A stretch of 64,000 bases of DNA from Hyphomicrobium nitrativorans NL23 (GTDB lineage Bacteria; Pseudomonadota; Alphaproteobacteria; Rhizobiales; Hyphomicrobiaceae). Below are positions 39,628 to 63,873 of this stretch, piece after piece. Positions within the stretch are counted from its first letter, which is position 1; each line of letters begins with the position of its first letter. Made by a program: the position numbers and the translations under genes. The notes below the pieces were generated by a model, which saw only the letters and a program-made list of their open reading frames with translations, was not told the DNA's origin and made no database searches. The DNA is taken from assembly GCF_000503895.1 (NCBI RefSeq), contig NC_022997.1, forward strand, positions 2,917,821 to 2,981,820, given 5' to 3'.

Positions 39628-39744
39628 ATCCCTAGAAAGATTGGGCTTTTTAGCCTATTTCGCCCCTCCGTCAAACGGACAAATTGGGAACAACAGTCAA
39701 AACGGACAAGGCTGTCCCGAACATGTCCCGAAGCGATCCGAGGG

Positions 39745-39966
39745 GTGTTCGGCCCTCGTTCCCTCTCGCCATCTACGAGTCTCTACAACTCTCCCCCTAC
39801 AGAGAAGAAAGAGGCCTTCCGCAAGACGCTGCGCGCTCTGCCGGGCTACCCCTGGCTGCCGTGCCCGATCTGCAAGGGCACGGAGAGTTGCGATCACATC
39901 GGCGCCGAGCGGGCGCGAGCAGCAATTCCGGGGCTGGTGTTCCCGGATGAACCCACCGTCAATTAA
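39745..39966 (+). CDS. Small zinc-motif protein, start uncertain
   Basis: The coding part is the last 55 residues, which contain KKEAFRKTLRALPGYPWLPCPICKGTESCDHIGAERARAAIP. The CPIC...CDH arrangement suggests a small zinc site. No ATG precedes it in frame; GTG at 39745 is one possible start, so the gene may be a 5-prime-truncated phage gene. Its stop lies 12 bases before the next start. I do not recognise the family. Confidence 0.4.
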   Translation: MFGPRSLSPSTSLYNSPPTEKKEAFRKTLRALPGYPWLPCPICKGTESCDHIGAERARAAIPGLVFPDEPTVN

Positions 39967-40065
39967 GGAGACTTCGCCGTGGGCGATTGGAATTGCAAGT
40001 GCGACGACTGCGGGCGCTTCATGACGTGCACGCCAGAGGCGTCGTGGGCGATCCGGTACGACTTT

Positions 40066-40073
40066 GTCGCGAT
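40066..40073 (+). repeat. Target-site duplication, left copy
   Basis: GTCGCGAT, repeated in direct orientation at 41933-41940 on the other side of the IS. The 8-base length is what IS1595-family elements make. Confidence 0.88.
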
Positions 40074-40088
40074 CGCATTTGACCAGTT
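40074..40088 (+). repeat. IS left terminal inverted repeat
   Basis: CGCATTTGACCAGTT, the inverse of the right end with one mismatch (T for A at position 5). Confidence 0.87.
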
Positions 40089-40151
40089 TAGATATGTAGC
40101 GTATTCCTCCCTCCGACGGCAGAATGGCCGAGTCGGAAGAGGGGCGGGCGC

Positions 40152-40873
40152 ATGCTCAAGGTCGCGGTTGATTACGTCCTCAAGCCTATTATTGGCGTTA
40201 TCGTGGGCCAGATCTTCCTTGCGCTCTGCCGATGGAAGGGGTGGCAGCCAGAGCAGGTCTTGGGGGAGCTACTCATGACCTCCCCAAGCCCGGAAGCTGT
40301 ACAGGTAATCTATTGGGCTCTTTCTCTGCTCATGGCTATCGGCGTGTGGGCGTTTTTGTCTCGGTGGCCGAAGATCCGGTTGTGGCTCTTTGGAACGAAG
40401 AAGCCCACTTCGGGACCAGCGCAAAATCAACATGCTGACGGTCCGGACATGACCATTAGAGACCTATTTTTTATCTTGATACCGATGTCATGGACGAGCC
40501 GCGATGGCTTGCTGTTGGCCAAGTCGTGCGGGATCATATGGCCCTTGGGCGACTGCGTTGTTGGGGGCGCCCCGTCAGAGACGACGAGTGGGTCGAGGAT
40601 CTTGTGGGAAACCCGGTGCGACCGGCCCCAGACAAGATCTCCAAGACCTATTGGCAGCGGGCACAATTCACCTATCTGTTTCTCAGTGATGACCCGATTG
40701 CGGGCGCCGCGCCTCATACATCACCGGACTTGAATTCCGGGCTCCCGGTCTACCGAGACCTTAAGGTCAGCAAGGCGCAAGCAATGTCCTTGGATTGGTC
40801 AGATATTCCAAAGTTCAGAGCCAAGAATGAAGTCTACTTCGCGGATCGCCGAGATCGAGAAGGTGAGGAATAG
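40152..40873 (+). pseudogene. IS passenger gene: membrane protein with cytosolic domain, frameshifted
   Basis: Residues 1-84 read MLKVAVDYVLKPIIGVIVG with two hydrophobic segments (about 8-27 and 50-72). The frame then reaches MTIRDLFF at 40449. After a run of six T (40467-40472) the frame breaks: only a -1 shift continues into YLDTDVMDEPRWLAVGQVV and a 130-residue cytosolic segment ending at 40873. One missing T would explain it. I believe it is one gene, but two genes are possible. The sequence resembles proteins found beside similar transposases in Hyphomicrobiales; no function is known. Confidence 0.65.
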
Positions 40874-40875
40874 AG

Positions 40876-41085
40876 ATGTCACGCGGCAAATACCTCAGCC
40901 TTGAAGAGGCCCGCGAGAGCGGAGACTTCCAACGCTTCTGCGAGGAACACCCCGCAGAAGCCGACCGCGAACGCTTCCTGAAGATCCTTCAGCTTATGAG
41001 CCAAGGCGCTTTAGAAGGAGAGGAAACATCACCTCGGGATGGTGCCGCAGGTTCCACCGGAACTCGAACTCGCCGAGGTACTTAG
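40876..41085 (+). CDS. Small passenger protein of the IS
   Basis: 69 residues starting MSRGKYLSLEEARESGDFQRFCEEHPAEADRERFLKIL, a charged helical segment, with an AGAG-type binding site and only 2 bases after the preceding gene. The last 18 residues overlap the transposase 3-prime end on the opposite strand and are low-complexity Gly/Thr/Arg. The function is unknown; the pairing with the frameshifted membrane gene suggests one transcript. Confidence 0.65.
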   Translation: MSRGKYLSLEEARESGDFQRFCEEHPAEADRERFLKILQLMSQGALEGEETSPRDGAAGSTGTRTRRGT

Positions 41086-41865
41086 GCAGGTGGTCTTTCG
41101 AGACGTGGATGTGCGTGCCACGGATCGAGCGCTTAATCATCGCCCAGAAACCCTCAATCGTGTTCGTATGCACGTCGCCGCGCACGTATTCCTTGCTCTT
41201 GTGGTGGACCGTCTCGTGCTGGAAACCGCACTTGTTGAGGTCAGAATAGCCTTTGTGCTCGTCGGTCGAAATCCGTGACCCTGGCAAGACGTTCTCCGTT
41301 ACCGTGACCTCAAGGGAATTGCGAGACGTGTCCGGGACGACGCGGGTAATGACGTCGCCATTGCGTTCTACCATTCCAACCACAATGGCCTTGTTGGTGA
41401 GGCGGCTTTGGCCCTTGCGCGCTTTCTCCCGGCCGCCAAGGTACGTCTCGTCAGCTTCGACATGGCCGGACAGCGGCGTGTCGCCATCGACGGCGGCGAG
41501 ATACTTCCGGATTTCGTGCCCCATGCGCCACGCGGTCTTGTAGTTCACGGAAAGCTGGCGCTGGAGTTCCTTGGCGGGAACGCCGTGGCGTCGTCGTCGT
41601 GAACAGGTTACATCGCATAGAACCACTTCTGGAGTGGCGTATGGCGACTTGTGGAACGGGGTCCCGACCATGGGGTGGACGTGGTTGCCACACTGGCAGG
41701 TCGTAAGCAGGCTGCTTTGAGAGCTTCTTCCACTTTCCAGTCTCGCCGCAAGCGTGAGCATTGGTGGTCCATGCCGAACCGCGCGTGGAACAGGTGCTCC
41801 TAAGGCCAAGCGTCGTCGTCCGGAAACATCTTCATGAACTCAATGATCGTGATCGGCTTTGCCAT
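40994..41865 (-). pseudogene. IS1595-family transposase (multiple frameshifts)
   Basis: DDE-type transposase in pieces. The start MAKPITIIEFMKMFPDDDA (41865) hits a stop at 41800. A middle stretch (CQCGNHVHPMVGTPFHKS) is in another frame, and the segment before HGVPAKELQRQL is again shifted. The C-terminal 200 residues are open: catalytic region HVEADETYLGGRE, STDEHKGYSDL and NTIEGFWAMIKRSIRGTHIHVS. The N-terminal zinc ribbon is destroyed by the indels. At least three frame changes are needed to restore the protein. Confidence 0.88.
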
Positions 41866-41917
41866 GTCGGCTCCCTCCATCTGAGAACCAACATACCGTA
41901 AAGGGCCACAGTACGTC

Positions 41918-41932
41918 AACTGGTCAATTGCG
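41918..41932 (-). repeat. IS right terminal inverted repeat
   Basis: Read inward it is CGCAATTGACCAGTT, pairing with the left end at 40074-40088 with one mismatch. Confidence 0.87.
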
Positions 41933-41940
41933 GTCGCGAT
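41933..41940 (+). repeat. Target-site duplication, right copy
   Basis: GTCGCGAT, the direct repeat of 40066-40073; the host reading frame resumes here. Confidence 0.88.
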
Positions 41941-42085
41941 GGAGCCGATTTGCGAACGCTGGCGGTGCAAGCGCTGCACGGCTGAGCTAGGCGAGGTCAC
42001 GTCGAATGCTCGCCCTCACAACGGCGACATGCGCGGGCATCAGGGCCGATTTGCAGAATTAGAAACCGTATAGGCAGGAGCCGAA

Positions 42086-42271
42086 ATGCCGAAAAATATA
42101 GCCGTTGGAGATGTCGTCCAACTGAAGTCGGGCGGGCCACCTATGACGGTCGGCAAGATCGAATGCCCAACCACGAGCCACAACGAGGACACTGCGCTCT
42201 GCGCGTGGATTGGTGAGAATGGGCAGGGCGAGACCTACACGTTCCCCGTCGTATGTTTGCGGAAATATTGA
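42086..42271 (+). CDS. DUF2158/YodC-like small protein
   Basis: 61 residues: MPKNIAVGDVVQLKSGGPPMTVGKIECPTT, then ALCAWIGENGQGETYTFPVVCLRKY. The GDVVQLKSGGPPMTV opening and CAWI...F....L pattern are those of the small DUF2158 proteins common in prophages. AGGAG precedes the ATG. The biochemical role is not established. It is 12 bases after the split zinc-ribbon gene, probably in the same transcript. Confidence 0.82.
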   Translation: MPKNIAVGDVVQLKSGGPPMTVGKIECPTTSHNEDTALCAWIGENGQGETYTFPVVCLRKY

Positions 42272-42289
42272 TCAGCGAGGGAGGCCGAA

Positions 42290-42481
42290 GTGAAGAAGCA
42301 GGTTCGCGTCTACACTTGCAAAAAGCACCCGAACTGGTCGCTTGAGACGGCGGCCCCGCTTATCGCAGGCGGTCTCAAGACGATCTGTCCGTTGTGCCGC
42401 GAGGAGTTCATCATCGCCAACATTGGCGAGGCCGACTGCCGCATCGAGGTGCGCGAAGTCGAAATGGCAAATAGTAAATAA
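42290..42481 (+). CDS. Small Cys-containing phage protein (GTG start)
   Basis: 63 residues from GTG at 42290, with GAGGGAGG upstream. It reads MKKQVRVYTCKKHPNWSLETAAPLIAGGLKTICPLCREEFIIAN. The C..H and CPLC pairs could hold zinc. I do not recognise the family. It is the last gene of the left rightward group and is followed by a GC hairpin. Confidence 0.65.
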   Translation: MKKQVRVYTCKKHPNWSLETAAPLIAGGLKTICPLCREEFIIANIGEADCRIEVREVEMANSK

Positions 42482-42499
42482 AGGAGCGCTAACATAATA

Positions 42500-42540
42500 G
42501 CCCCGCCGCCATCCGGGGAGCTATCGGACGACGGCGGGGC
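42500..42540 (+). terminator. GC hairpin after the left gene group
   Basis: GCCCCGCCG (42500-42508) pairs with CGGCGGGGC (42532-42540) around a partly structured loop. There is no T-run, so termination is uncertain. It lies between convergent transcripts. Confidence 0.5.
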
Positions 42541-42610
42541 CGGGCGCGCGCTCAAGCCACGGGGAAGAAGCCGAGCGCGATCTGGATATGTGTAAATTTC
42601 GTGGTTTTAT

Positions 42611-42725: not shown

Positions 42726-43091
42726 CTAGTCGGATGACCGTACGGCGTTCAGCGCACTCGTCACCTCCGTCAGAGGAGGAGCCCCCGCCAGGCCGAACCC
42801 CGCTGCTAACAGCAGGATAGCCAAGATGATCTCGCGGATAGGGGGCAGCACCTCCGCCAAATATTTCAGGCGCGAAGCCGGTGGCTCCGTGGGCTCGCGG
42901 CCAAAGGCTTCCAGCCGGCTCACTCTGTCCTGCAAATCCGCGATCCGGTCGAACGCTTTCTCGACCGCTTGGAGCGTCACGCGCTGTCCGTATTGGACCC
43001 CACCAATCTGACCCTTGATCTCGTAGAGGATGTCGTACACCGACGGGGGCTTGAGGCTGTGGTGGCCATTTATGCCGGGTGGCTCGTGCAT
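42726..43091 (-). CDS. Phage membrane protein with coiled coil (possible inner spanin)
   Basis: 121 residues: a polar N-terminus (SVYDILYEIKGQIGGVQYGQRV), a coiled-coil stretch (AVEKAFDRIADLQDRVSRLEAF, about 42-64) and one hydrophobic helix (IILAILLLAAGFGLA, about 87-102). The C-terminal topology differs from classic Rz proteins, whose membrane helix is N-terminal, so the spanin idea is weak. It ends the lysis cassette. Confidence 0.6.
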   Translation of the reverse strand: MHEPPGINGHHSLKPPSVYDILYEIKGQIGGVQYGQRVTLQAVEKAFDRIADLQDRVSRLEAFGREPTEPPASRLKYLAEVLPPIREIILAILLLAAGFGLAGAPPLTEVTSALNAVRSSD

Positions 43092-43129
43092 CGGCGCGAC
43101 GCTCCATTAGTGGGGTCTCCTTGATGTCC

Positions 43130-43528
43130 TCAGAGCCCGAACAGAGGGCAGATCTTCTTAGGCTTGCGCTGCGTCCGGCGCTTGATGGGTGCGTTTCGGA
43201 CAGTGATCGTCTGGAGCGTGACGTCAGCCGGTGCGATTTGGATGGCAGGGACGCACTTGGGCGTGTCGCTGGCGTCCTCGCAGATGAGATCGGGGTTGAG
43301 CGACTTGTGAACCTGTAAGTCTTCCTTACCTGTTGCAGATGCGCTGATCTCGTCGATGTCCATTTCCACGAGCGCCAGCCGGTCCTCAATATCGTAAAGG
43401 CGCGGCTCTGTTGGAGCAGACCGCATCGTCGCGAGACAGCTCGTGGATACCGCGAGAAGTCCGAGGCCGAGCGTGAGCGTGGCGACCTTCCCGAAGGCGC
43501 GCCATGCGGGAGACATCATGTTTTTCAT
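43130..43528 (-). CDS. Putative phage lipoprotein in the lysis cassette
   Basis: 132 residues. The N-terminus is a lipoprotein-like signal: positive MMSPAWRAFGK, hydrophobic LTLGLGLLAVSTSC, with Cys31 as the likely lipidated residue, though the -1 Ser and -2 Thr are only a fair lipobox. The middle is acidic (DIEDRLALVEMDIDEISA) and the end is Lys/Arg-rich. Its place next to the holin and endolysin genes suggests an outer-membrane spanin role, inferred from context only. Confidence 0.6.
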   Translation of the reverse strand: MKNMMSPAWRAFGKVATLTLGLGLLAVSTSCLATMRSAPTEPRLYDIEDRLALVEMDIDEISASATGKEDLQVHKSLNPDLICEDASDTPKCVPAIQIAPADVTLQTITVRNAPIKRRTQRKPKKICPLFGL

Positions 43529-43531
43529 GGG

Positions 43532-43981
43532 CTAACGGAAATGCTTCGCGATCCAATCGAACGGATCGGTCGAGGATTGGGGAGCGCTGGTCTTTGGAGC
43601 GGGTGTTGCCGGGGCAGAGCGAGTCACTGGCGGCGAAACGTGTGCGGCCTGGGGTGAGGGCCTGCCCCAGCCTCCAACCTCGTAGGCGAGGATGATGGAA
43701 GCGAGGAAAAACACGCCGGCAAAGCCGTTCGAGAAGATGTGATCGAGGGCAGATGCGATCCGGGTGCCTAGATAAGTGAGCGTCGCCTTGATCGCCCAAA
43801 CGACGAGATCGACGAAGCCTTCCGCGATCTTTCCAGCCGCAGCCGTGATCGGGTTGCTGAGGATCGTCGACGCGGCACCTGGCGCGAACTTGCCCAAGAC
43901 CTTGAGCGCGACACCTGCGAGGCCGAGCAGGCCGCCGCCCCAGCTCGCAAGGCCAAAGAGGCTGGTGAGGATGGTGATCAT
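43532..43981 (-). CDS. Putative holin-like membrane protein
   Basis: 149 residues with hydrophobic segments near 5-32 and 82-103 and an amphipathic stretch between; the tail is Pro/Ser/Ala-rich (VSPPVTRSAPATPAPKTSAP) and ends FDWIAKHFR. Its ATG overlaps the endolysin stop (ATGA), the usual coupling in lysis cassettes. Holins share little sequence, so the call rests on topology and position. Confidence 0.55.
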   Translation of the reverse strand: MITILTSLFGLASWGGGLLGLAGVALKVLGKFAPGAASTILSNPITAAAGKIAEGFVDLVVWAIKATLTYLGTRIASALDHIFSNGFAGVFFLASIILAYEVGGWGRPSPQAAHVSPPVTRSAPATPAPKTSAPQSSTDPFDWIAKHFR

Positions 43982-45357
43982 GCGGCCTTCCTCCGGGTGC
44001 TGGATTTGCGTGCCGGTTTTTTGTCGCGATCCGTCTTACGTGACACTTTCCGCCTGGGCCGCTTTTCGGGCAGCGGCGCATCGAACATATCCACAGCATC
44101 AGCTTCCGGTTCGATGTCCGTCTCGTAGGGAGGCTTGGTCAATGCGCCGCTGTTCGGGCGGAGCCGCTTCACGGAACGATAGAGGCCAATCCCGAGGGTG
44201 ATCAGAACTATGAACGACAAGATCGGGACAATGGCCGGAACGGTGTCGCCAAGCTCCCGCACCGGTGCCGTTGCACGCGAGGCTTCCGACGCCGCTTCCG
44301 GGAGGAACCCGACCACGGCCGCGATGGAGTCAACGGCGTACAACACCCACCCCTTGCAGGTGTAGTAGATGGTGCCGAGTAGGCCGAGAATGCCGACCGT
44401 TTTCTGTCCGACCGACTCCTCCTTAACAACCTCCGAGACCGGACGGACGTTCGGGACCGGACGCCGGTAGCCGAGGACCTGGCTGCGAGAACCAGTGCGG
44501 GGAACTGTCATCCGCGTGACCGCGCCCGACTGATTGAAACCGACGATGGTGAGCGTCGTGGCGGTCCACGATTCAACGAACGCGACGTGTCCCTGCCAGC
44601 TATTCGGCTTCACTCGCCAGAAGATGACGAGGCAGCCTTCCTCAGGCTCATCGAGCGCGTGACCATATTTCAGATAGTTCCGAGCGAGCTGGCCCGCCTC
44701 GCCTTCGATGTAGGCGAAGCCGGTGCGCTTGAGCATCGCTCCGGCGCCGACTGCACAATACGAATGGTCGTCGCCGCGGAGCGGGCTGCCGACCTCGATG
44801 AACAGCTTCTCGATGAAAGGATTCGTGTCGGGGCCGGGGATGCGCCGCTCGCCAAGATGCGTCTTGGCCATTTCCAGGGGAGCCGTCTGTGGAACCGGCG
44901 CCACCCGATCAATCGGAACCGACCCACCCCCGATCACCGTCACGAACTGCTCGTGGGCCTCAACCCACTGAGCGTCCGTCATCGGGTATTCGCGGCCGGC
45001 CTCGTGCCAAGCCATCGCCTTGCAAAGCTCAATCGCCATGTCCGGCGTTTCGATGAGCTGCTTCGTCACGTAGTCGTGACGGGTCCACCGGGTGCGGGAC
45101 TCGATTACACGGAGATACGAATTGATGTTGTTCCCGCCGCTCCACTTCGCGATGGCAGCTGAGAATGTCAGTCCAGCATAGACGCGGTGCAAAAGGTGCA
45201 TGTGAGCGGACGCGCCGTCCACCATCGTTGGGAACGTCGCGATCCGGTGCCCGCCTCCGATGATGGCGTGAGACGAGCCGCCAAACAGCCGCGAGCTTGG
45301 GCCTGGATACTGCGCTCCGCTATTGCGGTGCCGAACACTCGCCGGAATGGACATCAT
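43978..45357 (-). CDS. Endolysin with two putative lytic domains and C-terminal membrane helices
   Basis: 459 residues. The N-terminal part (7-138; RHRNSGAQYPGPSSRLFGG, WSGGNNINSYL, AMAWHEAGREYPMTDAQW) matches a lysozyme-like domain common in rhizobial phage lysins. The middle (about 160-300) resembles TIGR02594 cysteine peptidases/amidases, with C201 (SYCAVGAGAML) and H257 (WQGHVAFVESW) as candidate catalytic residues. Two hydrophobic segments (320-350 and 372-395) and a Lys/Arg-rich tail follow, which is unusual for an endolysin. GGGAGA lies 5 bases before the start. Confidence 0.82.
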   Translation of the reverse strand: MMSIPASVRHRNSGAQYPGPSSRLFGGSSHAIIGGGHRIATFPTMVDGASAHMHLLHRVYAGLTFSAAIAKWSGGNNINSYLRVIESRTRWTRHDYVTKQLIETPDMAIELCKAMAWHEAGREYPMTDAQWVEAHEQFVTVIGGGSVPIDRVAPVPQTAPLEMAKTHLGERRIPGPDTNPFIEKLFIEVGSPLRGDDHSYCAVGAGAMLKRTGFAYIEGEAGQLARNYLKYGHALDEPEEGCLVIFWRVKPNSWQGHVAFVESWTATTLTIVGFNQSGAVTRMTVPRTGSRSQVLGYRRPVPNVRPVSEVVKEESVGQKTVGILGLLGTIYYTCKGWVLYAVDSIAAVVGFLPEAASEASRATAPVRELGDTVPAIVPILSFIVLITLGIGLYRSVKRLRPNSGALTKPPYETDIEPEADAVDMFDAPLPEKRPRRKVSRKTDRDKKPARKSSTRRKAA

Positions 45358-45438: not shown

Positions 45439-45467
45439 TTGACATCATTGAATAATGCGCTTATCCA
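45439..45467 (+). promoter_or_regulatory. Putative sigma-70 promoter of the beta-helix gene
   Basis: TTGACA (45439-45444), 17-base spacer, TATCCA (45462-45467). It points rightward, against the surrounding phage late genes. The -35 is a perfect consensus. Confidence 0.65.
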
Positions 45468-45505
45468 ATGATGGCACATCGGATCAACCATATACGGATC
45501 ATTCA

Positions 45506-46480
45506 ATGCGCTGGACGAACCACAACGGCATTCTCACCCCGAACAGACGCCACATACTAGGCGGCCTCGCAGCCTTGGGAATGACACCATCCGCAGTCGT
45601 CGCAGCCCAATCGCCAAGCATTGTGGACGACTACGGCGCGGTAGGTGATGGCGTAACAGATGATCGCGTCGCGTTCACGGATGCGTTCAACGATATAAAC
45701 GCCGGCGTCATCAATCGCCTACGCATCCCAACACTGCCGGGAGCCAGCCCCACAGCGCCCACGAAATACCGCATCTCCGGCCCGTTGCCGATCATCGAAG
45801 CTCAGGGGTTCCGCATCGACGGTGACAGCATGTGGGAAACACAGCTGATCAGGGATTACAACGCCACCGCAGGCGAGGGATTCATCGATATTCGCGGCCC
45901 CTCGATTGGCTGGACCTTGAGCAATCTGACGATCGCTTCCGCTACAGGTCGAACGGGAGGCTCGGCGGTGCAAGTCATGGCCGGGGCTACGACTGGTTAC
46001 ACCGGCGGCAAATCCCTGCTCGAAAACCTCAACCTTACGGCCTACGGCACGAACTGTTGGGATTACACTCTGTGGCTCAATGGTAGTCTGAAAACAGACG
46101 CCCCAACTGGTTTGCGCACCATGACGCTGAGGAATGTCGAAGTGTTTGGAGCGGTGGGCTACAGCGCTATCATTTCCGCGATTGTTGGCCTTTCCTGGCA
46201 CGGAGGTGGGTGCTGGCCCGCGTCCGGCACAGGTGCTCAGTCTGGCGCCATTCTCCTAACGGGATCGACCGCCGTTCCGTCTAGCTCGGTGATGGTGAGT
46301 ATCCTCGGGTGTAACGGGCTTGTGCTGAGTAATTGCCACCATGGCGTGATCGACTGTTCAAACATCGGCGCAATCGGTGGCGTGTCCGTGAGCGCGGCGA
46401 ACACGTGCAGCAATTTCTACGTCCGCGGGCCGCGATCTGGCACCACCTCTCTAAATTGGGTTGCAAGCTCGATTATGTAA
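45506..46480 (+). CDS. Pectate-lyase-type beta-helix protein with Tat-like signal
   Basis: 324 residues from the ATG at 45506; an in-frame ATG at 45455 lies inside the proposed promoter. The N-terminus carries a twin-arginine signal (NRRHILGGLAALGM, Arg14-Arg15) with an Ala-rich end. The mature part opens DDYGAVGDGVTDDRVAF, the hallmark of the pectate lyase 3/tailspike beta-helix superfamily, then Ser/Gly/Asn-rich repeats. It is transcribed opposite to its neighbours and overlaps the tail-fibre-associated gene by 8 bases. It could be a secreted polysaccharide depolymerase or a tailspike-like enzyme; the substrate is unknown. Confidence 0.72.
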   Translation: MRWTNHNGILTPNRRHILGGLAALGMTPSAVVAAQSPSIVDDYGAVGDGVTDDRVAFTDAFNDINAGVINRLRIPTLPGASPTAPTKYRISGPLPIIEAQGFRIDGDSMWETQLIRDYNATAGEGFIDIRGPSIGWTLSNLTIASATGRTGGSAVQVMAGATTGYTGGKSLLENLNLTAYGTNCWDYTLWLNGSLKTDAPTGLRTMTLRNVEVFGAVGYSAIISAIVGLSWHGGGCWPASGTGAQSGAILLTGSTAVPSSSVMVSILGCNGLVLSNCHHGVIDCSNIGAIGGVSVSAANTCSNFYVRGPRSGTTSLNWVASSIM

Positions 46481-48811: not shown

Positions 48812-48813
48812 AG

Positions 48814-49026: not shown

Positions 49027-49033
49027 GGAGGCC

Positions 49034-49621: not shown

Positions 49622-49627
49622 CGTGTG

Positions 49628-50011: not shown

Positions 50012-50021
50012 GTGTTCTCTC

Positions 50022-51772: not shown

Positions 51773-54700
51773 TGCCCATCGTCTTTTCGAGACGATCCAA
51801 CACATTCCTATATTCTCCCTCGTAGAACTTGGCTTTCTTCTCAGCAGCCTGAAGCTGTCGACGCAATGAGTCCAGAGATCCACCTCGCGCATCCGCGAGT
51901 TCTGCCTTCTGGCGAAGCGTGGCAAGCTCCTTTGCAGCAGCATCAGCCTTCTTCGCCGCGTTGCCTGCAGCTTCCTGTGCCTGCTTCGAGACCTTCTTGC
52001 CAGCGGCATGCGCCTCACCGAGAATCCGCCGCACGTCCTCCGTCGCCGAGTGCAGCGTATGTCCCCACGGCGCGGCCGGCATCTCGCCGCCAGCCCTGAA
52101 GAACTCGCGCGCCAACTGCTCCTGCTCACTCTTTGAAGGAAAACCCTGCCGGCCCGGAATGGACTGAGTGTAAGGGTTGTTCTGGATGAAGCGCAGAACC
52201 TCTTCCTGTTGCGCGGAAGAGGTTACGGGAACACTCGTTGCGGGAGACTTCGGACGCGACGCTCCGGCCTGCTCCAATTCTCGGGTGAGCCACGTTTTCA
52301 GATCGTTGAGTCCACTCAACTGTTCCTCGACGGGCTCCACGCTACGAGGCAAAGGACGCGCTTCTCCGGTGAGGCGGCGATACTGGGACATCAGCCCTTC
52401 CACCTCGGACCTCAAGGCCGGCAGGGCTGCTTCAGCGGCTTTCTTGCCGCCCCGGAAGCCAGGGATGAGGCTGAAGCCCGCCATGGCAGCATCTGCTGCT
52501 GTACCGCTCTCTACGGCGCTGGAGACGTCATCGAGTGGCGTAAGCAGATTTACCGCGCCACCCGCAGCCGAGCCGATGCGCTCCGCGGTCGTGGATGGAA
52601 GTCCAATCGCCTCCGCACCCTGCCTGACGTTGAACGCTGCGCTTTCCGAAGGCGACGGGTTGTAGTTCCTCAATTCTGCTTGTGGCGGCGCATCGCCTGG
52701 CCGTGGCGCGGTCTGTTCGAACGCAGGATTCTCAGGACGTGGACCGCCAAGGCGCATAGGAGGGTCGAATCTGGGGTCACGTGGTGTGGGGGCCTCTGAA
52801 GCGCCCTCAGCATCACCCGCCACGCCAGGGACCACCGGAACCATCTGATCGAGGCTCCGCGTGAACTCGCGGAAACGCTGCGGGCCAAGCTGGCGTTGAA
52901 GGTTCTGCAGAATGCGTGCTTGTGCGGCCGGATCGGCTTCAACCAACCGCCGAGCAAGAGCCTCAGCCACGTCCTGACGATACGCCGTCGCTCTGGTCAG
53001 CGCAGCGCCCACCACTTCAAGGATGGCGTTTGTTCCGCCCCTGAGGCCCATCATCACGCGCGACAAGGCATCCGCGGCAAATTCGGCATCGTCACCCTGA
53101 CGTTGCGCCGTAGCGGAGTTTCCGAGAACGCGGTTTCGGGTCTGCCCCATGCGTTCTTCGCGTGTGAGGTATTCGCCGAAACGACCGGACCGATCACCGA
53201 AGGTCCCTGCGGTTGCTGCTGAACGCGCCCTCGGACCCGAATTTGGAATGATCTCTCTCAAGAGATCCTGCACCCGCGCCGTTTGGAACGGCATCGTTGC
53301 GTCGTTGCCAGAGCGCCTGTTTCCGAGCGCGTTCCGGGCACTCTCAAGAAACCCTTGCCTGAAATAGATCTGCTGACCAGGCGATAGGTTGCGATACTGC
53401 TCGATCGAAACCTCGCTGCCTTCTCTCAGTGCAGCGCGACCAAGCTCAATCGCCTCACGGTTCTCAGCGGCGGAGCCCCAGGCGTTCCGAGCCTGTTGAT
53501 AGAGTGCGTTACGCGTCGGGTCTCCTGCGGCGTTGGGTTGATGCACGGCCGTGAGAAGATCGTTCTTAAATCCCGTCAACAGGCGGGCGAGATTGTTCTC
53601 TCCGCCGCGGCGGGCGGCCTCGATCATGTCGTCGAGTTCCTGCTTCGCAGCATCGAACCGGCCGATGTTGTCGACGGGGCGTCTCTGGGCAGTGAATTGC
53701 GCATTCTGGGAACGAAGGGTCGCAAGATCTTCCTGTCCTCGCCTCATGAGCACGGCAAAGCGCCGCGCGAGGCGTTCGCGGGTCTGATCGTTCTTTGCGA
53801 AAGCGATCTTCTCCTGCATGTCCTCGGAAAGGCGGCGGAGACGGGTCATCAGCGCCATTTCCGCGTCGGCCGCGCCCTTCTTTACGGGCTGCGTAAAGAG
53901 GTCAATGGCTTTCTGAAACTGCCCGGATATGCCAGGCGGATAATCCTGCATCCTCTGGGCTACGCCGTCGATCACGCCTTGAATATCGAACGGCTCTGAG
54001 CCTTCCCTGGCGGCGTCATAGAGGCGCCGCCCTTCTCTCGCCTGATCCGCGGCGATCTGCCGTTCCGTCTGGCGTGCGCTGGCGCTCGTACGAAGCTGGA
54101 GCGCCCGAGAGAGAGCGTCGTCGATCCTGCCCCGCTGTCCTGTGTCACCGCTGGCAAACCGGCTGATCTGGTTCGGGTCGCCGCGCTGACGGGTTTCAAG
54201 CGCATCGCGAACGATCTCTCCTGCTCTGCCACCTTGACGATAGACGCTGCCAGTCAACCGCTGCATGCCATCCGACGTGTCAGCGATCATTTCGGGCAAG
54301 CGGGCTTGGCTGTTCGGACCAAGCCGCGCTGCCTCTTGTCCTGCTTGGAGCTCAGCTTGGACGGTCTGCGGCGTGGCACCGCTGCGCTCAATGCGCGCTG
54401 AAAGCACGCTATCCGCAACATCGTCCGCCGCACGCCCGGGAAGACGCGCTGCGAGCCAGGGAGCTGCTTGGCGACCGGCCCACAAAGCACCTGTCGCCGC
54501 TGCGCCAACTGCTGGCAGACCAGCACCGATAGCCGCGCCCGCCGCACCGTATTCGCCCGCCGTGCCCAGCCTTTCTGAGAAGCCGCCTTCCCCTTCAGCG
54601 AAGCCATGTCCGGCACCGTACGCAGCACCCGTGGCGGCTCCCGCTCCAATTCTCCCCAGCGTCGTTGCCGCTTGAAGAACAGGCGTAACGGGAGCTGTGG

Positions 54701-55112
54701 CAAGACCACCGGCAAGCTTCGTGATCGTGTTCGCAACAGGGCTTTCCGCGTCCGACATTGCGTGACGTGCACGCTCGTAGGCCAAGGCCTCGTCATAAGG
54801 CTGGCCGGCCCAGCCACCCGTGACGGCGTTCACACCAGCAGAAACGCCAGCCTTCGCCTCATCTACGAACCCGCCCAGAACCGGGATGCCGCGAAGAGCC
54901 GTCTCTGCTCCGCCAGGCATGTTGAGGTTGTAGAGAGCAGGGTTTTCCTCGCGAAGCTTTGCAAGGTCTTCCTCTGCGCTCTTGCGAAGCTGCTCGTCGC
55001 GTGTCTGCGGCGTAGGCGGCGGAACGGCCGGATTTTCGGCTCTATACCGTTCCCACGGTCCCGGAGACTGAAGCAAAGCCGGTTGTGCGAACTGTTCCCA
55101 CGGTCCAGCCAT
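51762..55112 (-). CDS. Large phage internal/DNA-ejection protein (putative)
   Basis: 1116 residues, intact. It starts MAGPWEQFAQPALLQSPGPWERY. Residues about 85-215 hold hydrophobic Gly/Ala-rich stretches (AAIGAGLPAVGAAATGALWAG) resembling membrane-inserting regions of podovirus ejection proteins. The middle (about 290-690) is long, helical and Arg/Gln-rich, and the end is coiled-coil-like (QAAEKKAKFYEGEYRNVLDRLEK). Size and position after the other internal proteins suggest the gp16/internal virion protein class. No lytic catalytic motif was recognised. Confidence 0.7.
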   Translation of the reverse strand: MAGPWEQFAQPALLQSPGPWERYRAENPAVPPPTPQTRDEQLRKSAEEDLAKLREENPALYNLNMPGGAETALRGIPVLGGFVDEAKAGVSAGVNAVTGGWAGQPYDEALAYERARHAMSDAESPVANTITKLAGGLATAPVTPVLQAATTLGRIGAGAATGAAYGAGHGFAEGEGGFSERLGTAGEYGAAGAAIGAGLPAVGAAATGALWAGRQAAPWLAARLPGRAADDVADSVLSARIERSGATPQTVQAELQAGQEAARLGPNSQARLPEMIADTSDGMQRLTGSVYRQGGRAGEIVRDALETRQRGDPNQISRFASGDTGQRGRIDDALSRALQLRTSASARQTERQIAADQAREGRRLYDAAREGSEPFDIQGVIDGVAQRMQDYPPGISGQFQKAIDLFTQPVKKGAADAEMALMTRLRRLSEDMQEKIAFAKNDQTRERLARRFAVLMRRGQEDLATLRSQNAQFTAQRRPVDNIGRFDAAKQELDDMIEAARRGGENNLARLLTGFKNDLLTAVHQPNAAGDPTRNALYQQARNAWGSAAENREAIELGRAALREGSEVSIEQYRNLSPGQQIYFRQGFLESARNALGNRRSGNDATMPFQTARVQDLLREIIPNSGPRARSAATAGTFGDRSGRFGEYLTREERMGQTRNRVLGNSATAQRQGDDAEFAADALSRVMMGLRGGTNAILEVVGAALTRATAYRQDVAEALARRLVEADPAAQARILQNLQRQLGPQRFREFTRSLDQMVPVVPGVAGDAEGASEAPTPRDPRFDPPMRLGGPRPENPAFEQTAPRPGDAPPQAELRNYNPSPSESAAFNVRQGAEAIGLPSTTAERIGSAAGGAVNLLTPLDDVSSAVESGTAADAAMAGFSLIPGFRGGKKAAEAALPALRSEVEGLMSQYRRLTGEARPLPRSVEPVEEQLSGLNDLKTWLTRELEQAGASRPKSPATSVPVTSSAQQEEVLRFIQNNPYTQSIPGRQGFPSKSEQEQLAREFFRAGGEMPAAPWGHTLHSATEDVRRILGEAHAAGKKVSKQAQEAAGNAAKKADAAAKELATLRQKAELADARGGSLDSLRRQLQAAEKKAKFYEGEYRNVLDRLEKTMGTKS

Positions 55113-56356
55113 TAAATCGGCTCCCAGTTGCTCTGGTCTGCGGGGTTTCCGCCTTTGAAGCGGTATCCGTCCATCACGGTCCCAACTGAGGGCGCCTGAA
55201 GCTGCGCGTTGTTCGGCGTTCGAACCGTGTCCTCGAAGTTTCGCAGGGTACCGAGGGCCGACTGCGGAAGTTCTCCAGCATCCACACGCGCACGGATCAC
55301 ACCGTTCCGGACCACCTGCTCAAGTTCTTCAATTGCGGCGGCGTATTCCTCGGGCTGCATATTTCGTTCGGTCAAGCGGCTGATGGCCTGCGTGGCCTTG
55401 AGACCTTCGATTTCCGTAATCTGTCCACCGCCCTTCAGCGACTCGAAGGCCGTCAAGAATGCTGCACCGTTGATCTGGTTCATCTTGCTCAGAACGCGAC
55501 CGGCAGCGGACGACATGTCGGGCGTCCTGCTATCAATCGGACCAAGCATCCGCGGCAAATACGGATCGCTCTTGAGCGAGTTCAACATGCCAAGCATTTG
55601 GGTCGCGTTCTGAACAACAGCAGGAAGTTCGGCCTGCGCTTGGCCGCGCACCTTTCCTGTTGCAGCCCCTCTTGCCCGCGCTTCAGCGGTTTCTCCTGGC
55701 CCCAACACCTGGACCCCGCTCGGCGTGTCGGCCTGGCGCAACGTTCCATCACTGCCGAGCTGCATCATGACGGGCTTGCCATCAGCGGCCACACCATAGA
55801 TCGGATTGAGACTATACTTTCCGCCCCCGGACGCCGACTGGCTCCGCCACTCATTGAACGGCATCGGCTCTCGTCCGGCTCCCCGTTCGTTCTGAGCGTA
55901 GAACTGATATTCCCGCACGCTTGAGGGCGTCAGCTGCTCCTGCTGCAATCCATACATACGGTTGCGGTGGGACTGATCCGCTTCAAACGAACGATCCCGA
56001 TGTGCACGGCTATCGGCTCTTTCCCGTTCGGCACTTCCCAACTTCAGGAAGTCCACGCCCTGCGACGGATCTAGTGACATGAGGCGTTCGCTTATCGCGG
56101 TGTAGTCGAGGTTGCCCTGCGCATCTTTCGGAACGCCGCCGGCGAACACCTGCCGCACCTGAGCGTCACGTGCACGAGCGTCTTGCCGTGCGGACTGCTC
56201 GTCGCGGAACGCATCCTGCTTCATGCGGTTGGTCTGCCCGTCGTAGTAGCTGTCCGCGATCTGCGAGATTTTCGAAAAGTCGATCTGCGCCGGCATGAAC
56301 GCGCCGCTCGCCTGCGTCGTCTGGCTCGGGAAGCTAAAGCTCGGAAAGCGTGCCAT
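55112..56356 (-). CDS. Phage internal virion protein (putative)
   Basis: 414 residues from ATG 56356 (MARFPSFSFPSQTTQ). It is helical and Arg/Gln-rich in the first half (RMKQDAFRDEQSARQDARARDAQVRQ; SAERERADSRAHRDRSFEADQSHRNRM), with a middle Gly/Asp-rich stretch and a helical C-terminal third (SLKGGGQITEIEGLKATQAISRLTERNMQPEEYAAAIEELEQV). This layout occurs in ejection-cluster proteins. It shares one base with the next gene. The biochemical role is unproven. Confidence 0.62.
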   Translation of the reverse strand: MARFPSFSFPSQTTQASGAFMPAQIDFSKISQIADSYYDGQTNRMKQDAFRDEQSARQDARARDAQVRQVFAGGVPKDAQGNLDYTAISERLMSLDPSQGVDFLKLGSAERERADSRAHRDRSFEADQSHRNRMYGLQQEQLTPSSVREYQFYAQNERGAGREPMPFNEWRSQSASGGGKYSLNPIYGVAADGKPVMMQLGSDGTLRQADTPSGVQVLGPGETAEARARGAATGKVRGQAQAELPAVVQNATQMLGMLNSLKSDPYLPRMLGPIDSRTPDMSSAAGRVLSKMNQINGAAFLTAFESLKGGGQITEIEGLKATQAISRLTERNMQPEEYAAAIEELEQVVRNGVIRARVDAGELPQSALGTLRNFEDTVRTPNNAQLQAPSVGTVMDGYRFKGGNPADQSNWEPI

Positions 56357-56366
56357 CTTGTCTCTC

Positions 56367-57050
56367 TTACGAGGCGCCGAAGAATTTCGCGGCGAGGTTT
56401 CCAACGCCCATGATGGCGTTCCATGTGTTCGCGCTCGCCGCCTGATTGGCCGCGTTGCGATCCGCAAAGAGCTGCGCGTTTGACTGACCGACCCCGGTTT
56501 CCGTGCCGTGCGCGAGACCGGCCTTCGCGGCGTTGTGGCCGTATTGGAGATCACCGAGGCCGGTCATCAACCCTGCCTGCGTCGTTGCCGCGCTCTGGCC
56601 TTGTCCCGATGCACGGAATAGGTTGTCGAGATACCGCTGATATTCCTGATCAGCGAGGCCCTGGGACCTGTCGGCAATCGCCATCATCGTGTTGCCGGAC
56701 CCAAGCATTCCAAGCGACGAGGCATTGCGTTTTGCCGCTTCCGTGGCTTGGTCAACTGCGAACTGATAGCCAGGCCCCGTGCGGAACGATTCCGTGGCGC
56801 GCTCGTACCCGTCTGCTCCACCAAGGCCGATGGCGTCTCCGTAGGCACCGGTCGCCGCCCCGCCTTGCTGGGTGTACTGGTCGAACAGACCGATGGCCTT
56901 GTCGTACTGTGGACGGGCCGCCGCAAGGCCCTCGTCCATCAGGCCCGTTGCACGCTGCTCACCCGTTCGGAGCCCGGCAATTCGAGCATCGTTTGCCGCG
57001 CCGGCCGCACGCTTTGCGCTGCCGGACGAAAATGCACTGAGCAAGCTCAT
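56367..57050 (-). CDS. Phage DNA-transfer/ejection protein (putative)
   Basis: 227 residues, Ala/Gly/Gln-rich and helical: AAGAANDARIAGLRTGEQRATGLMDEGLAAARPQYDKAIGLFDQYTQQGG, then FAVDQATEAAKRNASSLGMLGSGNTMMAIADRSQGLADQEYQRYLDNLF. This composition and pattern is characteristic of small ejection proteins (gp7-like) in podoviruses. It lies 10 bases before the 414-residue protein. Confidence 0.7.
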   Translation of the reverse strand: MSLLSAFSSGSAKRAAGAANDARIAGLRTGEQRATGLMDEGLAAARPQYDKAIGLFDQYTQQGGAATGAYGDAIGLGGADGYERATESFRTGPGYQFAVDQATEAAKRNASSLGMLGSGNTMMAIADRSQGLADQEYQRYLDNLFRASGQGQSAATTQAGLMTGLGDLQYGHNAAKAGLAHGTETGVGQSNAQLFADRNAANQAASANTWNAIMGVGNLAAKFFGAS

Positions 57051-57062
57051 ACGAGCCTCCTT

Positions 57063-57785
57063 CTATAGAATGAACAGAGCTGAGATGGCCTGATGCGCCA
57101 CGACGTCAGGGAAATTCGAGACAGTGGTCGAAATAATTTTTGGCGATGCCGCAGGGAGGTCCTGCTGGAACGCCGTGCTCAACGTGCACCGCTGCGTGCT
57201 GAAAGGAGAGGGGTATTGCGTTTCAAACGCGTTCCCTAGACCACTCCATGATGACCCAGTGACAGATGCCGAAGTGCTTGTCGTTCCACCGAGCCCAATT
57301 ACTGCACTCCCCGCTGGAACGTTCCGGCTCATCACATGCGTTTGGGAGCGGGTCGGATAGGTCAGAATGGAGGCAACACCAGTTGAACCGCTAACCTCAA
57401 AGGCATGAATGATAACCTGGTTAGCGTATGGGTTGACGACGACCGTAACGTTCCCGCTCGCACCCGCTGAAATGGTCGCATAGGCAAACGCAATGAAGCC
57501 GCTGCGGTTTTGCGAAATGTTGGCCGTCAGTTCGCATTGGCCGCCTATCGTGGCGGACACACCGGCTATCGTACACGACGATAGACCACTAAAAGACGTG
57601 GTGAGGCTTCGCGCGGCCACGATACAAACACAGACAACGCGAGCGTAATCCTTTGCCGCAATCGGAGTACCAGACCAAACATGGACGGGCTCTGCAGGGT
57701 TGATCCCCATCGTCGTGCTGCCGAGCCGCAGGACTTCGATCTTCCTCTGTGAGGGAGATGGAAACCAACCGGGCAAGAAGCTCAC
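57063..57785 (-). CDS. Phage structural protein of unknown function
   Basis: 240 residues, beta-rich with many Ser/Thr/Ala: VRVVCVCIVAARSLTTSFSGLSSCTIAGVSATIGG, then FIAFAYATISAGASGNVTVVVNPYANQVIIHAFEVSGSTG. This resembles an Ig-like or head-fibre fold, a guess. The start MSFLPGWFPSPSQRK lacks a signal peptide. It follows the 178-residue protein by 3 bases. Confidence 0.6.
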   Translation of the reverse strand: MSFLPGWFPSPSQRKIEVLRLGSTTMGINPAEPVHVWSGTPIAAKDYARVVCVCIVAARSLTTSFSGLSSCTIAGVSATIGGQCELTANISQNRSGFIAFAYATISAGASGNVTVVVNPYANQVIIHAFEVSGSTGVASILTYPTRSQTHVMSRNVPAGSAVIGLGGTTSTSASVTGSSWSGLGNAFETQYPSPFSTQRCTLSTAFQQDLPAASPKIISTTVSNFPDVVAHQAISALFIL

Positions 57786-57788
57786 GAC

Positions 57789-58325
57789 CTACGCCTTCAT
57801 CGCAGAGACGAGGATTCTCGTCGCGCTCACCGCGAAGAACGTCAGAAGCATAGGAGCAGAGTTGGTCACGGCCACCGTCGGGATGTCGCCAGCAAAGTTT
57901 GAGCCAAAACCAATTGATCGGCTAGACCCGTCAGCACCAATCGCTCTGATCGTGCGCCACGTCCCGGGCTGCACATTCGTCGGATTCGGAACGGTCCGGT
58001 TTGCCGATAGGACCCACGTTCTGTTGACACCCGCAGCCCAGTCGAAAGTGGGAGACGATCCGTCCGTGATCGCGACCGGAGCCGCAGCCGTTGCCAACCG
58101 CTCTGTCGTCAAAACCTTGTCATTTGCGGCCGCAGCGTACACGTCGCCGTCTGTCGCAAAATCCGGCTGATACGGCTCGTCTTCATTAACGAACTTTGCA
58201 ACAGCCCGGAGGATTCTATCTGCGTCCTTCCAGTATTCGTAGAAGGCTTGTGCCGCCTGTTCGTTGATCGGGCTGACAAGTGGAATATGGGGTTGTGGCA
58301 AAGGACGGAGCTTAAGGTCGGCCAT
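57789..58325 (-). CDS. Phage structural protein of unknown function
   Basis: 178 residues. The N-terminus (LKLRPLPQPHIPLVSPINEQAAQAFYEYWKDADRIL) is helical and the remainder is beta-rich with a Thr/Asn pattern (TWVLSANRTVPNPTNVQPGTWRTIRAIGADGSSRSIGFGSNF) typical of virion decoration or tail-appendage proteins. It overlaps nothing and follows a 111-residue gene by 18 bases. The function is not known. Confidence 0.62.
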   Translation of the reverse strand: MADLKLRPLPQPHIPLVSPINEQAAQAFYEYWKDADRILRAVAKFVNEDEPYQPDFATDGDVYAAAANDKVLTTERLATAAAPVAITDGSSPTFDWAAGVNRTWVLSANRTVPNPTNVQPGTWRTIRAIGADGSSRSIGFGSNFAGDIPTVAVTNSAPMLLTFFAVSATRILVSAMKA

Positions 58326-58343
58326 GAAGGTTGCCTTCGAGCT

Positions 58344-58679
58344 CTATAAGACGCCTGTTGGCCCGTCCGGGCCGGCGCTTACTGTGAAGCGTCCTGCGTC
58401 GCCACCAATCTCTCGGCGCGCAACTGGCGATATCCGCGAGCCAAAGAGTCCCTCTGCGATTGCGTTAATGGCTTCCGGCGTCTGCGGGACGGCTTCATCA
58501 GGTCCGCCCACCATTCTTCGACCGACAACGTAGTCTGCCGTGAGGGGTCTTCCTTCGATGTCGTGTGTGAGTCGTCCTGTTTCATCAGCTCTTGCTCCAC
58601 CCGGATAGTCTGCCTCGAAAGGCCGTTGTGGCCTCTGCGGAGGAGCATACATTTTAGCATTTTTCGACCATGGCGTCAT
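58344..58679 (-). CDS. Small phage protein, perhaps a truncated larger protein
   Basis: 111 residues from ATG 58679. The text FEADYPGGARADETGRLTHDIEGRPLTADYVVGRRMVGGPDEAVP looks like the N-terminus of larger phage proteins I recall from rhizobial phages, with a further domain after GGDAGRF. Here it stops soon after. Whether it is natural or truncated is unclear. It follows the tail-hub gene directly (stop at 58680). Confidence 0.55.
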   Translation of the reverse strand: MTPWSKNAKMYAPPQRPQRPFEADYPGGARADETGRLTHDIEGRPLTADYVVGRRMVGGPDEAVPQTPEAINAIAEGLFGSRISPVARREIGGDAGRFTVSAGPDGPTGVL

Positions 58680-59705
58680 CTACGTCGCCCTCACGTCTGC
58701 TTTTTGGTCCGCGCCGAAAAACATCACGTCGACCGGGTCAGAGATCGTGATCCGCCAGCGCCGGCCCCTAGGGCCAGATAGTCCGGTATTCAAAACATAG
58801 GGCGGATGCTGTGCGATCTGCTGGCGTCCGAGCTTTCGGATCAGGGGGCGCGACCACTTCAACCCGCCATCGTTCGACCACGAGATTTCCACACTCGGAT
58901 CTGTCTGAATCGGGTCGTCGCCTGTTGCGATGCCGACGCCGGGCACAAAGTCGAAATCAGCTCTTGCGACTTGGATACTGTTCGGGAAGTTTTTCACCTC
59001 CCCGCTTTCCATCATCCACACGAGCGGCTGCCCATCTTCTCGGAGAGCATCCGCGGTGATTTCCTGGAGCTTTTCGGACAACATGTCGCCACAGAGCCAT
59101 TTCGTGACGTTCGGAAAAGCGTCGCCAATCGGAAAGGCTTGGGTGATCCGTGAGCGCTTCTGCAAGTAACTGTTGCGCTCAGACCATTTGCCAGTTGTAA
59201 CGTCGAACGCGACACTCCACTCGTCGCACGACAGTTGCCAAAACTTGTGCCCAGCTGACGTGTAAACGCAGGCTTCCAGCGTATGTTGGTTTTGGAGCGC
59301 GCTCAGCCGTCTGTTCAGCCACGACGGGGAGACGACGGTCGGCTCATACCCATCGAGGCGGCGAACGGTCTTGTCGTCAGAAACCCACAATAGGATTTCC
59401 GCAAATTCGTCCGTACCACCAGCAATCGCGTGCTGAGACAGAAGCCCTGACGGTATCGTGTGAGACCAAGAGAAAGGGAAGCCCTCCGGGTTTCCTGAAT
59501 TCGACCAAACCTCGATAGAGCGCGTTCCACAAAGAAGCATGTAGCCGCGAAACGGGACCGGCCTGAGCAAGCCGTCCGGGTGCTGCTCCGCCGTGGCGAT
59601 GTCGAGCGGGTTGATCGTTGTCGCATTGACGCCGGCGCCGCGCTCAGATCGAGGCCACACTCGTTCCGGTTTCAGGCGAGCCAACGGAGAAGGAGGCTCA
59701 GTCAT
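58680..59705 (-). pseudogene. P22 gp10-type tail-hub protein, N-terminally truncated
   Basis: Tail accessory proteins of this class close the P22-type portal and stabilise packaged DNA. The visible similarity starts near 59630 with NATTINPLDIATAEQHPDGLLRPVPFRGYMLLCGTRSIEVW and runs to the end (GNPEGFPFSWSHTIPSGLLSQHAIAGGTDE; WLNRRLSAL). Relatives are about 470 residues, so about 130-150 N-terminal residues are missing. The first 25 residues of the open frame (from 59705) are host flanking sequence. This truncation marks the right edge of the remnant. Confidence 0.72.

Positions 59706-61179: not shown

Positions 61180-63873
<2,694 letters not shown>

Follow-up and report, generated by a model that had tools for sequence, protein, structure and literature searches.

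The prophage remnant of Hyphomicrobium nitrativorans NL23 is most likely the rear half of an ordinary short-tailed phage genome that a deletion left behind, and thus most likely a decaying piece of prophage rather than a preserved weapon. By gene content, positions ~39700-59638 of the window (the whole 64,000-nucleotide stretch that was analysed) hold the distal part of a P22-type podoviral late region (Table 1). PHROG profiles matched a minus-strand late region with head closure, three ejection proteins, tail, fibre and a CHAP lysin, in the P22-type order of Hc3 followed by gp7-, gp20- and gp16-like ejection genes. Directly past the right-hand junction, where terminase, portal and coat genes would be expected upstream on the same strand, host genes begin. 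A first-pass annotation had proposed a prophage remnant that kept its tail, ejection and lysis functions; the podoviral late region bears this out, but the hub is not intact. The supposed tail-hub protein is actually the head-closure protein Hc3 (phrog_578), truncated at the right junction.

Table 1. Features of the remnant and its edges (positions in the window)
Feature	Position	Strand	Evidence or remark
tRNA-Gly (TCC), left edge	39554..39627	-	ARAGORN
Short overlapping ORFs, uncertain origin, probably decayed	39979..42482	.	Reading of ORF layout
271-aa ORF with complete IS1595-family (ISXO2-like) transposase domain	40994..41809	-	PF12762 1.4e-45
Three small proteins, hydrophobic/lipoprotein-like by eye	42726..43981	-	Lysis-associated by position only
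459-aa CHAP-domain protein, probable lysin	43978..45357	-	phrog_1259 1.1e-16; PF05257 1.9e-4, below its cut-off
341-aa pectate-lyase-like protein, Tat-like N-terminus (by eye)	45455..46480	+	PF12708 3.5e-5, below its cut-off
527-aa fibre/decoration protein	46904..48487	-	phrog_2647 2.1e-22
Three small late proteins (101, 195, 193 aa)	48506..50209	-	Syntenic with L020
317-aa tail protein	50243..51196	-	phrog_8763 1.4e-27; 64% identical to L020
1116-aa gp16-like ejection protein	51762..55112	-	phrog_5880, E 1.5e-48
480-aa ORF, gp20-like ejection protein	55112..56554	-	phrog_2534 'released from the phage upon host infection' 5e-9
227-aa gp7-like ejection protein	56367..57050	-	phrog_598 'DNA ejection' 1.1e-8; 74% identical to L022
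Three small proteins (240, 178, 111 aa)	57063..58679	-	178-aa: weak L021 match; family prophage L097 32%, 1e-9
Head-closure Hc3 gene, 5'-truncated	58680..59642	-	phrog_578 1.4e-54; residues 161-479 of 479
Deletion junction (~59636-59642) and last ~23 codons of host ring-cleaving-dioxygenase-like gene	59636..59705	+	
Host carboxylesterase (Abhydrolase_2)	59704..60342	+	Followed by flavin reductase, pyruvate dehydrogenase E1

The edges of the remnant

Residues 22-340 of the Hc3 ORF in the window match residues 161-479 of a 479-aa phage homologue at 69% identity. About 160 codons, including the start, are missing, there is no homology ahead of the junction, and the apparent start codon sits within host-side DNA. 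On the plus strand, a frame that runs over the junction closes with a tail of 23-24 residues, and its stop overlaps the start of the hydrolase gene. Among 19 orthologous hydrolase loci outside the NL23 genome, eight (L060-L062, L067, L071, L074, L077 and L078, the three closest loci among them) carry a complete dioxygenase-like ORF directly upstream of the hydrolase. By sensitive tblastn, the window tail maps to the very end of this ORF in six of the eight (L062, 57%, E 0.005; L067, 0.006; L077, 0.007; L071, 0.035; L078, 0.21; L074, 0.29), and was not found in the two loci whose hydrolases are the closest orthologues, L060 and L061; a first, less sensitive tblastn found it in none of L060-L062. 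Since three of the 11 loci without the ORF also give weak tail matches (E 1.0-9.9), matches above E 0.1 mean little. The tail is short and 'dioxygenase' is a label read from the sequence, by which reading the host remnant at the junction appears to be the end of a dioxygenase-like gene. Together, the loss of ~160 Hc3 codons and the dioxygenase-like tail at the break point to a deletion that took the prophage's head half together with the greater part of the host gene.

The left edge is less sharp. Sequence beside the tRNA-Gly is common to three of the seven other genus species, up to about 39683-39700. The interval first proposed, 39640-59630, thus needs adjusting to this limit on the left and to ~59636-59642, within the dioxygenase remnant, on the right. 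The left 3 kb are probably decayed, to judge from their ORFs, one of which (42086-42271) matches phrog_3261. No direct repeat of at least 12 bases links 39400-40200 with 58500-64000 that would place the left boundary at an att site. The tRNA-Gly was rejected as a proven att site: the right end has no matching repeat and the phage lies on the 5' side of the tRNA. A functional prophage would also call for an integrase, but of the chromosome's 14 integrase matches not one falls inside the window.

Late genes, missing head genes and relatives

As first reported, no integrase, terminase, portal or capsid gene is visible: among the searched ORFs of the interval, small ones covered in part, the terminase, portal and major capsid families gave no match. 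The 527-aa protein and Hc3 (the 'hub') do have matches annotated as 'head decoration' and 'connector', respectively. The first-pass annotation had also suggested profile searches for head genes elsewhere on the chromosome. The portal family phrog_156 gave no match on the closed chromosome, with a positive E. coli control; on this one portal family searched genome-wide rests our rejection of a portal sited elsewhere on the chromosome.

The closest relatives are three IMG/VR phage contigs, G060, G061 and G062 (loci L020, L021 and L022), all of which have the same order from Hc3 to gp7-, gp20- and gp16-like genes as the remnant, continued in G060 into tail and fibre genes. Best-matched proteins are 64-76% identical. 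Unlike the remnant, the three carry a complete Hc3 of 479 aa; upstream of its Hc3, G061 encodes terS, terL and portal (L034 with L021), G060 has terL and portal at the opposite contig end, and L020 has no match to the lysin region of the window. The best phage-collection record for the Hc3 fragment is Pseudanabaena phage Pam5 (ON014757; 36% over 93%), which is distant and, unlike the remnant, a free phage. A portal match upstream of Hc3 was seen in seven of eight prophage regions at the family level. Retrieval of the Hc3 places with wide flanks left out the G329 match and the second G382 match. None of the relatives yielded an identifiable coat gene, their proteins of 343 and 476 aa having no PHROG match. 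Two pattern scans of genome contigs (318 and 38 pattern stretches) gave no confirmed relatives. The large deletion suggested at first is supported by a visible right breakpoint, which splits a phage and a host gene, and by relatives that carry terminase and/or portal upstream. Adjacent head genes in another assembly, which were to have spoken against selective keeping, were found in spirit only: the neighbours belong to related phages and prophages rather than to another assembly of the same strain.

The ejection and fibre proteins, the 1116-residue one among them, were named correctly, each having a profile match, although phrog_5880 is itself annotated as 'unknown function'. In P22-type phages, such ejection proteins are packed within the capsid. 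The core of the 1116-aa protein is 76% identical to L020, as are the first 107 residues of the 527-aa protein. The true start of the 480-aa ORF may lie ~66 codons further in, beyond its overlap with the 227-aa gene. Only the CHAP protein upholds the proposed lysis cassette; its three small neighbours have no PHROG match at E≤0.05. An invertible fibre segment around the plus-strand 341-aa ORF was rejected, as no long, near-perfect inverted repeat flanks it.

Deletion, domestication or arrival as a fragment

We consider it highly probable that an illegitimate deletion through Hc3 and the host dioxygenase-like gene left these distal late genes. A P22-type podovirus prophage would once have lain with the tRNA-Gly on one side and a host group of dioxygenase, hydrolase and flavin reductase genes on the other. 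The deletion, with breakpoints within Hc3 and the dioxygenase-like gene, would have removed the upstream part of the late operon, with terminase, portal and whatever else made up the head region, and the bulk of the dioxygenase gene; integrase and early genes were probably lost along with the head region. The ejection, tail, fibre and lysin genes would then have survived because they lay across the breakpoint, and not because they were selected. A single event was probably the cause, loss in several steps is possible, and the remnant presumably makes no particles. Counting against this account, all retained genes but Hc3 have open frames: either the event was recent or something keeps them.

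The latter would hold if the module were domesticated, its ejection and lysis proteins kept for a killing particle or supplied to another element, which we think very improbable. Large frames are still open, and against the phage relatives the remnant genes have dN of 0.19-0.35 with dS of 1.5 or more, or saturated (five genes; the 193-aa gene was misframed and left out). With dS this high, however, the dN/dS comparison proposed at the outset is uninformative, and the low dN mostly reflects the history of the free phage. A second ejection-gene locus in the NL23 genome shares a C-terminal module with the remnant (residues 797-1108 of the 1116-aa protein, which match a separate ORF of element 2, below, at 60% identity). 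Against a particle or killing module, as first imagined, stand the beheaded Hc3, the end in mid-gene and the lack of a phrog_156 portal on the chromosome, and the passage of PMC4992974 on P22-type ejection proteins has them travelling inside the capsid. Nor is vertical conservation seen, with Hc3 homologues in none of seven other genus members and eight of 102 other family members. A tailocin would need a complete tail operon conserved in the lineage, in contrast to these podoviral parts and their truncated Hc3. We rate as similarly slight the chance that the module came as a fragment, by illegitimate recombination or within a larger acquired island including the hydrolase gene group: other members of the genus mostly lack the hydrolase (a weak match in one of seven) and the interval from tRNA-Gly to pyruvate dehydrogenase varies among its species, but the dioxygenase-like remnant implies DNA loss at the junction, as in a deletion, and a 20-kb insertion starting mid-gene needs a second rare event.

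Deletion thus makes the remnant a case of ordinary prophage decay, and a retained function is not supported. Deletion-driven decay is ordinary among P22-type defective prophages, with which, as with P22-type podoviruses, the remnant shares a distal late operon of head closure and three ejection-type proteins; unlike defective prophages generally, its breakpoint is resolved to a junction of phage and host genes. With the breakpoint located, what looked temptingly like a 'selectively kept module' becomes a plain product of deletion, a reminder that open reading frames alone are no proof of retention.

A second element with ejection-type genes

About 57 kb to the right of the remnant lies element 2 (C1:3034189-3048766, 14.6 kb), which is the more interesting lead. 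It is bounded by perfect 49-bp repeats, one copy in a tRNA-Thr, and encodes a 453-aa integrase, an excisionase-like HTH protein, a replication-type gene and gp20- and gp16-like ejection-type genes; only the integrase and the two ejection-type proteins exceed 400 aa. No terminase, portal or capsid match was found in it, a search that a small divergent capsid gene could escape. The 694-aa gp16-like part equals other gp16-like proteins in length (L094, 699 aa), and immediately beyond it a 371-aa ORF restarts, so the region may be two genes; the early idea of a gp16 gene broken by an in-frame stop was dropped.

In its small size, att boundaries, integrase, excisionase-like HTH, replication-type gene and lack of terminase, portal and capsid matches, element 2 resembles phage satellites (PICI, cfPICI, P4-like, PICMI). 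It differs in its two podoviral ejection-type proteins, which the satellite passages of PMC11773190, PMC11389934 and PMC6893505 do not describe; those passages have satellites redirecting capsids or packaging. In PMC6893505, 'ejection protein' is confined to the reference list, and a search for phage satellites with ejection proteins returned PMC13216270 only, where the phrase is confined to a cited title on a phage 80-alpha protein. Among the search results, no paper joined phage satellites with an internal virion protein, or with DNA ejection, integrase and helper phage.

Tentatively, and with some doubt, we suggest that element 2 represents an undescribed class of podovirus satellite, having its own integrase, excisionase and replication gene and only ejection proteins, which would take a helper capsid and fill it with its own ejection machinery. 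On this view the remnant would be what is left of a possible helper lineage, with which element 2 has its C-terminal ejection module in common. Such exchange would adapt delivery to another host envelope or else sabotage the helper's particles. If true, this would be parasitism at the DNA-delivery step, and would matter more than the remnant.

Of 21 places found outside the NL23 genome, all but G057 were retrieved. Viral scans with the gp16-like proteins of element 2 and G190 found no loci, and the G027 protein found seven, of which the Hc3 model matches L173 and L177 and not the other five. By gene list, L171 and L172 look like ordinary podoviruses whose structural genes are more distant. As L171 also carries an integrase match, it would pass as 'integrase without portal' by models alone, so that criterion is unsafe; for element 2 and G190 the case is built instead on complete gene lists and on sizes. 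G190 has a comparable compact arrangement, complete, which occupies no more than about 13.8 kb of the DNA separating its host neighbours. Two others may belong here as well: G027, which a contig end cuts short, and G040, which is partial.

A prophage remnant broken at its head-closure gene

From ~59640 down to ~42700, minus-strand genes matched phage families in a PHROG profile search and lie in P22-type late-operon order. Going by the PHROG labels and the known P22 gene set, we take the head-closure protein Hc3 and the 227-, 480- and 1116-aa proteins to be P22 gp10, gp7, gp20 and gp16, respectively. The GC content of the remnant is 0.597, vs. 0.644 for the first 38 kb of the window, which spans G000:C1:2917821-2981820 in a host genome of one 3.65-Mb contig.

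Features of the remnant (window positions), of element 2 on the host chromosome (G000) and of related loci (L, fetched stretch; G, genome)
Feature	Position	Strand	Match or remark
tRNA-Gly	39554-39627
Shared flank of tRNA-Gly	39628-39700		~60-70 bases shared in part of genus; variable sequence adjoins
Pectate-lyase-like protein	45455-46480	opposite late genes	Tat-like N-terminus
Hc3		minus	phrog_578; first in late order
227-aa DNA-ejection protein		minus	phrog_598
480-aa ORF		minus	phrog_2534
1116-aa protein		minus	phrog_5880
Tail protein		minus	phrog_8763; small proteins next
527-aa fibre/decoration protein		minus	phrog_2647
459-aa CHAP protein		minus	phrog_1259; last in late order
C-terminal dioxygenase-like host-gene remnant	59636-59705		ahead of carboxylesterase and flavin reductase
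Element 2	G000:C1:3034189-3048766 (L023:19190 to L024:13767)		genes below in order from integrase end
Integrase, 453 aa			gene 1
125-aa ORF
84-aa ORF			HTH by eye
229-aa primosomal/DUF1376-like protein			Pfam match below cut-off
475-aa gp20-like protein
694-aa gp16-like protein			phrog_5880, 1.7e-45
371-aa ORF
Excisionase/regulator-like ORF			phrog_66; others beyond
Compact element in G190	L139 (G190:C1:957400-977399), 4119-16348		span at most ~13.8 kb
Gene row in G027	L106 (G027:C1:1007400-1027330), 7192-17164
Podovirus prophages L094, L095	G355:C1:152000, 1601700

The 341-aa Hc3 ORF, called a tail hub in the first-pass annotation, aligns from residue 22 onward to residues 161–479 of a 479-aa protein in a phage contig from IMG/VR (L021; 69% identity, as also to the two other phage contigs), and its residues 1–21 are encoded by DNA beyond the junction. 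On the plus strand, the junction encodes a 23–24-residue tail, with a stop codon that overlaps the start of a carboxylesterase at 59704; from its sequence, the host gene appears to be a ring-cleaving dioxygenase. A dioxygenase-like ORF lies directly upstream in 8 of 19 carboxylesterase loci outside the host genome, including the three closest, and sensitive tblastn placed the window tail at the extreme end of this ORF in six of the eight (E = 0.005 in L062, 0.006 in L067, 0.007 in L077, 0.035 in L071, 0.21 in L078 and 0.29 in L074). The tail matched neither of the other two, L060 and L061, in this search, nor any of L060–L062 in an earlier, less sensitive one; weak matches (E = 1.0–9.9) occurred in 3 of 11 carboxylesterase loci without the ORF. 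We conclude that at ~59636–59642 a phage gene meets the remaining tail of a host gene, both genes having lost their 5′ parts. That the remnant instead came as part of an acquired island is very improbable, and slightly more so since the dioxygenase tail match became firmer with sensitive tblastn.

At the left edge, sequence beside tRNA-Gly is common to three of the seven other species of the genus (G006, G001 and G002) up to ~39683–39700, so foreign DNA begins past this point, its first 3 kb holding short overlapping ORFs and an IS1595 transposase domain. We do not claim an att site at tRNA-Gly, because no direct repeat of at least 12 bases links the two edges and the phage DNA lies on the 5′ side of the tRNA.

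The missing head half

Upstream of Hc3, phage contig G061 encodes small (phrog_606) and large (phrog_979) terminase subunits and a portal (phrog_156), the last followed by 343- and 476-aa proteins with no PHROG match. In phage contig G060, terL (phrog_38) and the portal lie at the opposite contig end (L033), consistent with a permuted genome. Seven of eight family-level regions (L094–L100) match the portal model on the upstream side of Hc3, and none was found within the stretch of the eighth (L101). Together with a junction that splits both Hc3 and the host gene, this supports the large deletion suggested in the first-pass annotation, as does the search it proposed for head genes elsewhere on the chromosome, which gave no match to phrog_156, a portal family that in a control search matched E. 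coli alone among 14 genomes. None of the chromosome's 14 integrase matches lies inside the window; the match at C1:3047443 belongs to element 2.

The retained phage frames are open, as would be expected after a fairly recent deletion. The other explanation first offered, a retained function, is disfavoured by the beheaded Hc3, the lack of a phrog_156 portal and the distribution of Hc3 homologues, which are absent from all 7 other members of the genus and present in 8 of 102 others in the family; because of the first two, particles from the remnant locus alone are not expected. The 1116-aa protein has matches in 3 of 59 other relatives (G027, G011 and G008), each of another genus, and nothing suggests vertical retention of remnant genes. 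The dN/dS comparison also proposed there was usable for four of five genes (dN 0.19–0.35, dS 1.5–1.9 or saturated), and against the phage contigs L020–L022 it measures phage history. The remnant is a defective podovirus prophage, a known kind, with an unusually clear breakpoint.

A second ejection locus

The host chromosome carries a second ejection locus, element 2 (14.6 kb), ~57 kb from the right edge of the remnant, with the gp16-like genes ~69 kb apart. Its ends are a perfect 49-bp repeat, one copy of which is the 3′ part of tRNA-Thr. No head genes were found in element 2, and only its integrase, gp20-like and gp16-like proteins exceed 400 aa, so that a terminase or portal of normal size would not fit. 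We label the 475-aa protein gp20-like on the basis of 57.5% identity over 160 residues to a G008 protein encoded directly upstream of a gp16-like gene in a portal-bearing region; it has no BLAST match to the window 480-aa ORF. The 371-aa ORF is 60% identical to residues 797–1108 of the window 1116-aa protein, against 31% between the gp16-like cores; its counterpart is absent from L020, it has no match in the phage collection, and distant relatives occur in G011 and G008.

Element 2 is a possible podovirus satellite. It also has a 73-aa ORF that seems to resemble the end of an S74 domain from a tail fibre, which would be consistent with decay from a prophage. In the accessible parts of the literature searched, ejection proteins were not reported for any satellite. 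One paper names P4-like, PICI, cfPICI, PLE, PICMI, VEIME and tycheposon types, and its main text does not use the word 'ejection' (PMC11389934); another reports a PICI mobilised by vB_EcoP_Kapi1, by its name a podovirus (PMC11773190).

Comparable gp16-like loci

The neighbourhoods of 31 gp16-like loci outside the host genome were scanned with portal, Hc3 and integrase models. Portal and/or Hc3 matches were present in 10, an integrase without either in three (L106 in G027, L139 in G190 and L148 in G040), and no marker was recognised in 18, where some stretches end at contig ends. These models miss divergent podoviruses: L171, an IMG/VR contig outside the 31, has an integrase match and no portal match, although its gene list resembles that of an ordinary phage. 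The counts of 18 and three are therefore both unreliable on models alone.

The cleanest case, G190, encodes an integrase, HTH_17, helicase/primase-like, RuvC-like resolvase, DUF5681, transglycosylase-type and gp16-like proteins between host genes for a histidine kinase and a GGDEF protein; no portal or terminase was found in the element, and the 15 kb and 12.4 kb flanking it gave no portal match either. We counted this element as carrying two ejection-type proteins. In G027, integrase, DUF1376, DnaB, gp20-like and gp16-like genes run in a row to the contig end, the last product being 62% identical to that of L171, and in G040 the gp16-like protein encoded near an integrase is represented by its C-terminal part alone. 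All three may be satellites or convergent deletions. Elsewhere, L094 and L095, two podovirus prophages at separate sites on one chromosome, are almost identical in sequence (99.9% over 14.6 kb, 98.7% over 5 kb), and the portal match of L095 is split between two frames.
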